The notes below the pieces were generated by a model that made no database searches, had not been told where the DNA came from, and saw only the letters and a program-made list of their open reading frames with translations. Below are positions 15,343-43,872 of a stretch of DNA of 64,000 bases, piece after piece. Position 1 is the stretch's first letter, and each line of letters starts with the position of its first letter. This stretch comes from Succinispira mobilis DSM 6222. GTDB taxonomy: Bacteria; Bacillota; Negativicutes; Acidaminococcales; Succinispiraceae. The DNA lies in the NCBI RefSeq assembly GCF_000384135.1, contig NZ_KB913028.1, forward strand, positions 771,351 through 835,350, read 5' to 3'. Both the position numbers and the translations under genes were made by a program.

Positions 15343-15654
15343 ATGTACGCAATTATTAAAACTGGTGGTAAACAATACCGTGTTAGCGAAGGAGATACTC
15401 TAGTTGTAGAAAAATTATTGGCTGGCGAAGGCGAGCAAGTAGTTTTTGAAGAGATTCTTTCAGTAGTTAATGGCGAAGATATGAAATTTGGTACTCCATT
15501 TGTAGCTAACGCTAAAGTAACAGCTAAAGTTGTTGAACATGGCAAAGGTGAAAAGATTTTAGTTTTCAAATACAAAGCTAAATCTAACTACCGTAAACGT
15601 CAAGGTCATCGTCAACCTTTTACAAAAGTTGTTATTGAGAAAATCGAAGCCTAA
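15343..15654 (+). CDS. rplU: 50S ribosomal protein L21
   Basis: Structural protein of the large subunit that binds 23S rRNA. The 103 residues include the N-terminal [18 protein letters not shown] and C-terminal [18 protein letters not shown], both diagnostic. GGGAGGTG precedes the ATG. Its stop codon shares one base with the prp start, so the two are translationally coupled. Confidence 0.98.
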
Positions 15655-15977
15655 TGACAAATATTGATATTGTACGTAATAAGCAGAAACGGATTATTGA
15701 GTTTTCTGTACAAGGACACTCAAATTATGCTAATTATGGCGAAGATATTGTTTGTGCTGGAATTTCAGCACTGACTCAGGCGGCCTTGTTGGGCTTGGTA
15801 GAGCATCTTAAACTCGCTGTAGTGCACGAGGTTAAACCGGGTCTTTTAAAGGTAACTTTGACGGAGCAACTGCTAGATGAACGCTCCGATGCAATATTAG
15901 AAACGATGGTGCTAGGTTTAAGGCAGATAGCACAAGCGTACAAAAAACATGTGCGCATTAAAGAGAGCGGGAGGTGA
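15654..15977 (+). CDS. prp: Ribosomal-processing cysteine protease Prp
   Basis: Cysteine protease that removes the N-terminal extension of L27 in Firmicutes. The catalytic dyad is visible as His22 in [16 protein letters not shown] and Cys34, in the spacing of the family. The 107-residue protein lies between rplU and rpmA, the conserved position, and its substrate gene rpmA begins 6 bases after its stop. The L27 encoded here has a matching cleavable extension. Confidence 0.95.
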
Positions 15978-15983
15978 AATACT

Positions 15984-16274
15984 GTGTTTAAATTTAATTT
16001 ACAATTATTTGCATCTAAAAAAGGTGTTGGTAGTACTAAAAATGGTCGTGATAGCCATTCAAAACGTTTAGGCGTGAAAAGACATTCTGGCGAAACTGTA
16101 ACTGCAGGTAGCATTTTAGTTCGTCAACGTGGAACAAAATTTCACCCAGGTCATAATGTTGGCATAGGTAAAGATGATACATTATTTGCGAAAATACCTG
16201 GTCGCGTGGCTATAGAACGTAAAGGTCGCAGTGATCGTCAAATCAGTGTATATCCTGTAGAAGTGGCCATCTAA
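15984..16274 (+). CDS. rpmA: 50S ribosomal protein L27 with cleavable N-terminal extension
   Basis: Large-subunit protein whose N-terminus reaches the peptidyl-transferase centre. It starts at GTG with GGGAGGTG upstream. The first nine residues (MFKFNLQLF) precede Ala10-Ser-Lys-Lys-Gly, the mature start of L27. This matches the Prp site known from Staphylococcus, where cleavage lies just before the Ala. [20 protein letters not shown] and [20 protein letters not shown] are the conserved body. 96 residues before processing. Confidence 0.98.
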
Positions 16275-42005: not shown

Positions 42006-42791
42006 ATGCAAATGATTGAGTTTATGTACATTAATTTAGCGGTAGCTATTTTAATTTTTGCTCGAATAAATGGGATTTTTGTAACAGCCCCTTTTTTTGG
42101 GAGCAGAAATATTTCTGCTAAACTGAGAATTGGTTTGAGTTTGCTTTTGACGATATTAATCTTACCCAGTGTTTTAAAATTGAATATAGCTAGTAATTAT
42201 CAAGAAGCAAATTTATTATATTTTTCACTAGTTGTAGGTGAATTTCTTGTTGGACTAATTATTGGGTTTGTAGCCAATATATTTTTTAGTGTAGCTCAAA
42301 TGGCAGGACAGGTTCTAGATATGCAAATTGGTTTTGGGATGGTAAATGTTCTAGACCCTCAATCGGGACAACAGATGCCTGTAATTGGTAATTTTTTAAA
42401 TATTTTAGCGGTGTTAGTTTTCCTAACTACGAATGCGCATCATTTTTTATTAATATCTTTAAATGATTCGTTTTCGGTAATTTCTCTAGGAGCACCGAAT
42501 TTTCAAGCTGGTATCTTAGCTTTTGCTTTAGAAGTATTTAAAAAAACTTTTGTAATAGCATTTAAATTTTGTTTGCCGATTGCTACAGTAATTTTGTTAA
42601 CGGATATTGCGTTAGGCATGTTGTCGAAAACTATGCCCCAGATGAATATATTTATTGTGGGAATGCCTGCAAAGATTATTTTGGGTATATTTATGCTCAG
42701 TGCTATATTACCTACGTATATTTACGTTTTAAAGGTTGGATTTGATGAAATATATAAAGATGTTCAGAACATCATACGTATTTTGGCCTAA
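42006..42791 (+). CDS. fliR: Flagellar export gate protein FliR
   Basis: Polytopic export gate component. The 261-residue protein has about six membrane segments, with RINGIFVTAPFFGSRNISAK, GEFLVGLIIGFVANIFFSVA and AGQVLDMQIGFGMVNVLDPQ as family motifs. The start may be the ATG at 42006 or 42012; neither has a strong ribosome binding site. Its 3' end overlaps the likely flhB start by about 45 bases. Unlike in C. difficile, fliR and flhB are not fused. Confidence 0.93.
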   Translation: MQMIEFMYINLAVAILIFARINGIFVTAPFFGSRNISAKLRIGLSLLLTILILPSVLKLNIASNYQEANLLYFSLVVGEFLVGLIIGFVANIFFSVAQMAGQVLDMQIGFGMVNVLDPQSGQQMPVIGNFLNILAVLVFLTTNAHHFLLISLNDSFSVISLGAPNFQAGILAFALEVFKKTFVIAFKFCLPIATVILLTDIALGMLSKTMPQMNIFIVGMPAKIILGIFMLSAILPTYIYVLKVGFDEIYKDVQNIIRILA

Positions 42792-43872
42792 AAAACAATT
42801 GAACACTTTTGATTTACAGTTGTTTAGTGGTGAAAAAACAGAAGAACCTACTTCTAAACGTCAAAGTGAAGCGAGAAAAAAAGGACAAGTTGCTAAAAGT
42901 GCAGAAGTAAATGCAGTATGTCTTTTCATAACGGCCTTTACTGTTTTGCAGGTATATGGTGCTAGCATATATAGCGAACTTGTTGGAATAATGCATTATA
43001 TGTTCACGGAATTTTTTCGACAACCTTTTACGATAGAAGCCATACACGGACTGTTTTTGCTGCTGTGTATGGTTTTTTTAAAAACTTTAATGCCAGTTAT
43101 GGCGGCTATTTTCGTAGTTATGATTGTTGTTAATGTTGCCCAAGTAGGTTGGGCTTTTAATACAGAAAGCTTGATGCCGAATTTTGAAAAACTAAACCCC
43201 ATTAGTGGTATTCAAAAACTTTTATCGCCTAAGGTTTTGGTAGAATTATTGAAGGCAATAATAAAAGTTATCATAGTCATATACTATTTATACAAGTTTA
43301 TTGCCCAGGAAATAGATTCCTTGCCAGCGATGGTTTTATCAGATTTAAAATTAGATGTTGGTTACAGCATAGATTTATTGGTGCGATTGGTGTATGATAT
43401 TTGTAAAGTGATGTTGGTATTTGCCTTGTTTGATTATGGTTACCAATGGTGGAATCATAAACAAAGTTTAAAAATGAGTAAACAAGAGATTAAAGAAGAA
43501 ATGAAACAGACTGAAGGTAATCCGCAGATTAAAAGCAAAATAAAGCAAAAGCAACGTGAGATGGCAATGCAACGCATGATGTCTGAAGTTCCTAAAGCGA
43601 ATGTAATTGTTACCAATCCAACGCATTTTGCAGTTGCCCTAAAATATGAAAACGATATGCCAGCCCCATTAGTGGTTGCAAAAGGTAAAGATTTAGTGGC
43701 CTTTAAGATAAGAGAAATTGCTAAGAGTAATAATGTAGCTATCGTAGAGAATAAACCTCTAGCAAGAATAATTTATCAAACTGTGGAAATAGGTGATATT
43801 ATTCCCCCTGAACTTTATCAAGCAGTTGCTGAGGTTTTGGCATATGTATATAAACTTAAAGGTCGCAAATAA
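42745..43872 (+). CDS. flhB: Flagellar export switch protein FlhB
   Basis: Membrane protein that gates export and switches from hook to filament substrates after self-cleavage. The self-cleavage motif NPTH begins at Asn291 counted from the ATG at 42745. Four membrane segments lie in the first half. The start is uncertain: ATG 42745 has AAAGG upstream but lies inside fliR; TTG 42799, just after the fliR stop, would give a shorter product beginning at NTFDLQLF. That segment followed by SGEKTEEPTSKRQSEARKKG is the normal FlhB beginning and resembles a Prp cleavage site. Confidence 0.92.
   Translation: MKYIKMFRTSYVFWPKKQLNTFDLQLFSGEKTEEPTSKRQSEARKKGQVAKSAEVNAVCLFITAFTVLQVYGASIYSELVGIMHYMFTEFFRQPFTIEAIHGLFLLLCMVFLKTLMPVMAAIFVVMIVVNVAQVGWAFNTESLMPNFEKLNPISGIQKLLSPKVLVELLKAIIKVIIVIYYLYKFIAQEIDSLPAMVLSDLKLDVGYSIDLLVRLVYDICKVMLVFALFDYGYQWWNHKQSLKMSKQEIKEEMKQTEGNPQIKSKIKQKQREMAMQRMMSEVPKANVIVTNPTHFAVALKYENDMPAPLVVAKGKDLVAFKIREIAKSNNVAIVENKPLARIIYQTVEIGDIIPPELYQAVAEVLAYVYKLKGRK

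Follow-up and report, generated by a model that had tools for sequence, protein, structure and literature searches.

The scaffold and capsid proteins of phage 80alpha are cut by the host protease Prp. They share with the flagellar export switch protein FlhB, the subject of this work, an N-terminal site, and differ from it in being viral head proteins and not part of a cellular secretion machinery. A further point of comparison is the ribosomal protein L27 of Staphylococcus aureus: The likeness lies in a [DN]LQ[FL]F/A motif near the N-terminus (the slash marks the scissile bond throughout), in the placement of Prp in the L27 operon and in a conserved domain that starts right after the site, whereas FlhB has a more variable P2 residue (L, F, W, R, H, Q, M, I, Y), often carries a longer leader and is an inner-membrane protein. 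The autocleavage of FlhB at its NPTH motif is likewise a proteolytic maturation of this protein; it is, however, autocatalytic, confined to the C-terminal domain, universal and independent of the N-terminal leader.

That FlhB might itself be a Prp substrate was proposed from a hand alignment by Hotinger et al. in 2022 (PMC9405229, section 3.2, Table 3), an article according to which the proposal of FlhB as a Prp candidate is to be credited to Wall et al. The alignment sets the N-termini of FlhB and L27 side by side, including B. subtilis FlhB (MKLRVDLQFF/AGEKTEK), and E. coli FlhB begins after the site; the occurrence of Prp in spirochaetes and Thermotoga without a long L27 is posed there as an open question (PMC9405229, Table 3). 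Since this proposal comprises the same motif match and suggests the same second role for Prp, the FlhB–Prp idea followed here is a rediscovery. Hotinger et al. considered about a dozen species by hand, some of them without the LQ pair (C. difficile, C. tetani, Borrelia), and what was missing is a systematic comparative test. Here, we go beyond the published proposal by classifying about 200 flagellated genomes, mostly Bacillota, by including Prp-less Bacillota, by measuring the start position of FlhB and by a phylogenetic test.

Results and Discussion

The 64-kb window, i.e., the whole stretch of DNA analyzed, contains both an L21–Prp–L27 cluster (15343–16274) and the flagellar fliR–flhB cluster, all on the forward strand. 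The former consists of rplU for ribosomal protein L21 (15343..15654; PF00829, 4.6e-40), prp for a cysteine protease of the MEROPS C108 type (15654..15977; PF04327, 2.1e-25) and rpmA for L27 with an N-terminal extension (15984..16274; PF01016, TIGR00062). Prp reaches 89 bits against PF04327, for which the gathering cut-off is 27, and is encoded in a single copy, with one match genome-wide. Its residues H22, D31 and C34, the positions that matter in S. aureus Prp (PMC9405229), are all in place, the His/Cys dyad among them, and follow the same numbering. The protein stays below the equivalog cut-off of the NCBIfam sub-models PRK14553 (best score 67 bits vs 135); these parallel sub-models look narrow and lineage-specific, and the miss bears on the sub-group and not on the family. 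The L27 leader MFKFNLQLF (15984..16010; motif at 15996–16012) has its cut site after F9, and the matches of L27 to PF01016 and TIGR00062 start at residues 9–10, just past this site. Elsewhere, three genomes (G376, G433, G484) have two PF04327 matches each, one of which is possibly phage-borne. In an uncultured Clostridia metagenome-assembled genome (G042; L115, L035), the active-site loop of Prp is shortened to NHGRDIVC in place of GHxxYAxYGxDIVC, and the FlhB site reads LSFF while the L27 site reads LQFF.

The gene flhB follows directly on fliR (42006..42791, forward strand; assigned by gene order and sequence) and was identified by TIGR00328 (406 bits, curated cut-off 349) and PF01312 (E 1.1e-128); the NPTH autocleavage motif can be read in its sequence. 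Its start is ambiguous: A TTG codon at 42799 yields a leader of 9 residues (gene at 42799..43872), and an in-frame ATG at 42760, which would overlap the 3' end of fliR, yields one of 22 residues (gene at 42760..43872), so that residue numbers in FlhB, such as 15–35, change with the start chosen. The translated N-terminus consists of KKQLNTFDLQLF before and SGEKTEEPTSKRQSEARKKGQVAKS after the predicted cut, i.e., NTFDLQLF/SGEKTEEPT. The Prp-type recognition site DLQLF/S occupies 42811..42828 (codons GAT TTA CAG TTG TTT AGT), the predicted scissile bond lies between 42825 and 42826, and the leader predicted to be removed is, in its minimal version, LNTFDLQLF (42799..42825). The domain matches to PF01312 and TIGR00328 begin at residues 24–25, right after the motif. 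Outside the window, the C-terminal domain of FlhB has a short paralogue encoded on its own (G000:C1:941499-941717; open frame of 109 amino acids), and such a paralogue is also present in many related genomes.

The initial annotation had pointed out that the start of FlhB resembles the Prp site of L27, which we confirm: The stretch reads FDLQLF/SGEKTE, and the window contains the pattern RAYYTNCARYTNTTYDS two times, exactly at the L27 and FlhB sites, compared with 0.22 occurrences expected from shuffles, 4 of 100 of which reach two. When the genome of 2.09 Mb was scanned with a nucleotide pattern that encodes [DN][LF]Q[LF]F and extends into the next codon, combined with a reading of the open frames, 11 matches were obtained, vs 2 for the reversed control. 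Among these 11, only the matches in L27 and FlhB are N-terminal in a real gene; the remaining matches fall into short, antisense or non-coding frames or inside LigA (around residue 220). A stricter pattern gave 14 matches in nine other Prp-positive genomes: Position near Prp or the FlhB domain assigns at least ten to L27 or FlhB, one lies in a prophage head scaffold and two are in short frames. N-terminal matches in these nine genomes are confined to L27, FlhB and the prophage scaffold protein. Besides FlhB, the motif singles out those substrate classes that are known for Prp. One could argue that a hydrophobic motif this short, with 11 matches in the genome and two in the window, resembles the L27 site by chance. 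The distribution of the stricter matches over L27, FlhB and a phage scaffold speaks against this reading, and it is refuted by the conservation of the motif at the same place in more than 100 genomes, leaving it a virtually negligible probability. The prophage head scaffolding protein matched in the scan, from genome G416 (L456:879-1595; phrog_2303, E 1e-59), has the N-terminal site RLNLQFF/ADGDGG.

The comparison across genomes draws on two samples: FlhB loci from 80 named genome contigs of Bacillota and other phyla, of whose genomes 50 were searched for Prp and L27, and 399 genomes of the phylum of genome G063 (FlhB family matched in 330, Prp in 309). All 66 genomes of the latter set with FlhB and without Prp were followed for FlhB and L27; Prp-positive genomes were sampled. 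The motif is present in FlhB of 112 of 123 Prp-positive genomes (95 + 10 + 7 across three readings, G065 being counted as Prp-positive) and in none of the 73 Prp-negative genomes for which L27 was read, or none of 81 if eight with L27 unread are added. A short L27 was found in all 73 of the former, a long L27 in all 89 Prp-positive genomes read, including one IDIQLF leader that the regular expression had scored as short. The LQxF segment is hence not equally conserved in Prp-less FlhB, and the co-occurrence of motif and protease strongly supports the earlier suggestion that Prp could process FlhB. Eight genomes have a motif-bearing FlhB and no detected Prp; here, assembly gaps or contig ends took the L27/Prp locus. 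In seven of them neither Prp nor L27 is in the assembly, and in G065 (L144) the contig ends inside Prp, of which a C-terminal fragment is visible. A home-made Prp profile that matched all 90 Prp-positive loci found no Prp in the 74 L27 loci of the Prp-negative set except for this edge fragment.

The 11 Prp-positive genomes without the motif constitute a caveat to cleavage: Ten encode a leaderless FlhB that starts directly near M-xxEKTE, and one encodes a FliR–FlhB fusion with a degenerate IIF/A site, from which it follows that FlhB processing is not universal among Prp-positive genomes. The fusion is natural and occurs in G418 (L428/L458), with the junction LLIIF/ADDSGDKTE lacking LQ; a second apparent FliR–FlhB fusion (G332:C17:129665-131554) brings the number in the sample to two. 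The FlhB sites of G202, G423, G170 and G302 (L411, L473, L476, L477) read KLQIF or KLQLF, and the L27 leader of G202, MKLQLF, is also unusual and very short.

Within the FlhB leader only the protease-recognition positions are conserved and the rest is unalignable. Of 102 motif-bearing FlhB sequences, 99 have Q at P3, 96 have D or N at P5 and about 95 have A or S at P1'; G285 (L417), whose leader has two tandem sites (LQVFRIDLQLF/AD), was scored at the first of these, and its P2 and P1' entries in these counts are wrong. The P2 residues of L27 and FlhB mostly agree within a genome (L/L 44, F/F 23, L/F 3, Y/W 3), an agreement that is inseparable from descent because it rests on about five changes on the tree. 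The distance from the predicted cut to the conserved KTE is 2–9 residues in the same 102 proteins (mode 3), and FlhB of Prp-negative genomes (n = 81) starts at most 11 residues before KTE (median 7). Because the latter proteins start near the cut position, cutting would give Prp-positive species approximately the same N-terminus, as is the case for L27. An AlphaFold2 model, for which 46 FlhB sequences served as input, gives the leader of the version starting at 42760 (residues 1–20) a pLDDT of about 54, compared with 90+ in the body of the protein.

These data also bear on the possibility that mature FlhB keeps the LQxF segment as a structural or membrane-contacting N-terminal element, which Prp may bind without cutting. 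The segment is indeed hydrophobic, and the open literature searched yielded neither an experimental test of FlhB cleavage by Prp, peptide evidence included, nor a demonstration of such cleavage. A retained element of this kind is nevertheless difficult to reconcile with a segment that is absent from every Prp-negative genome read, that is identical in its residues to the sites of L27 and phage scaffolds, that is modelled at low confidence and that lies ahead of the start of the curated FlhB models; we therefore regard it as very unlikely.

Both leader and Prp could also be ancestral in one part of the Bacillota and absent elsewhere, in which case one or two old events would account for the association and FlhB need not be cut. 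On an FlhB tree built leaving the leader out, the state of Prp changes at least 12 times and that of the motif at least 9 times (a second tree gave 13 and 10, respectively). A model of dependent evolution is favored over an independent one (likelihood ratio 58.1, 4 degrees of freedom, p about 7e-12), a test that can be inflated by a few deep changes. Of the supported pairs that are strictly independent, 4 point in the same direction, 0 in the opposite direction and 4 are uninformative (p = 0.125). Such phylogenetic inertia thus draws support from the small number of four strictly independent contrasts and from the concentration of most Prp-negative genomes in a few clades. Against it stand the at least 12 changes of Prp and the restriction of conservation to the protease-recognition positions of an otherwise unalignable leader. 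Moreover, at three separate points of the FlhB tree, leaves with Prp and without the motif adjoin Prp-negative clades, and not a single Prp-negative leaf with the motif is found on it, which is as expected if the FlhB leader goes before Prp. Taken on these grounds, we consider inertia unlikely.

The reading we prefer is that the N-terminus of FlhB is very probably a Prp-cleavable leader, which would make FlhB, next to L27, the second cellular protein that Prp cuts behind the F of a [DN]LQxF site. Prp, made alongside the ribosomal proteins encoded beside it, would most likely cut the flexible leader while FlhB is being made or shortly afterwards; we assume that it has access to FlhB, a membrane protein translated beside FliR. 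The cut FlhB would acquire the short N-terminus SGEKTEEPT..., which is encoded directly in Prp-less bacteria such as E. coli. In a cryo-EM structure of the Salmonella export apparatus, the N-terminus of FlhB is ordered and wraps around residues situated directly beneath the transmembrane helices (PMC13308203, preprint). Because the ordered N-terminus contacts this region, an uncut leader of 9–22 residues could interfere there, and uncut FlhB would presumably be a poor component of the export gate.

Conclusion

Prp is probably a dual-purpose leader peptidase with two cellular clients, L27 in the ribosome and FlhB in the export gate. It appears to be lost only where the FlhB leader is gone, so that FlhB processing would help to explain the persistence of Prp, including in spirochaetes without a long L27. 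Ribosome assembly may also be tied to flagellar export and, through regulation, to motility. Trimming of FlhB by Prp would make an essential ribosome-maturation protease a motility factor as well, and Prp inhibitors could then stop both translation and swimming. Such trimming would, moreover, give Prp a function in those spirochaetes and Thermotoga that lack a long L27.
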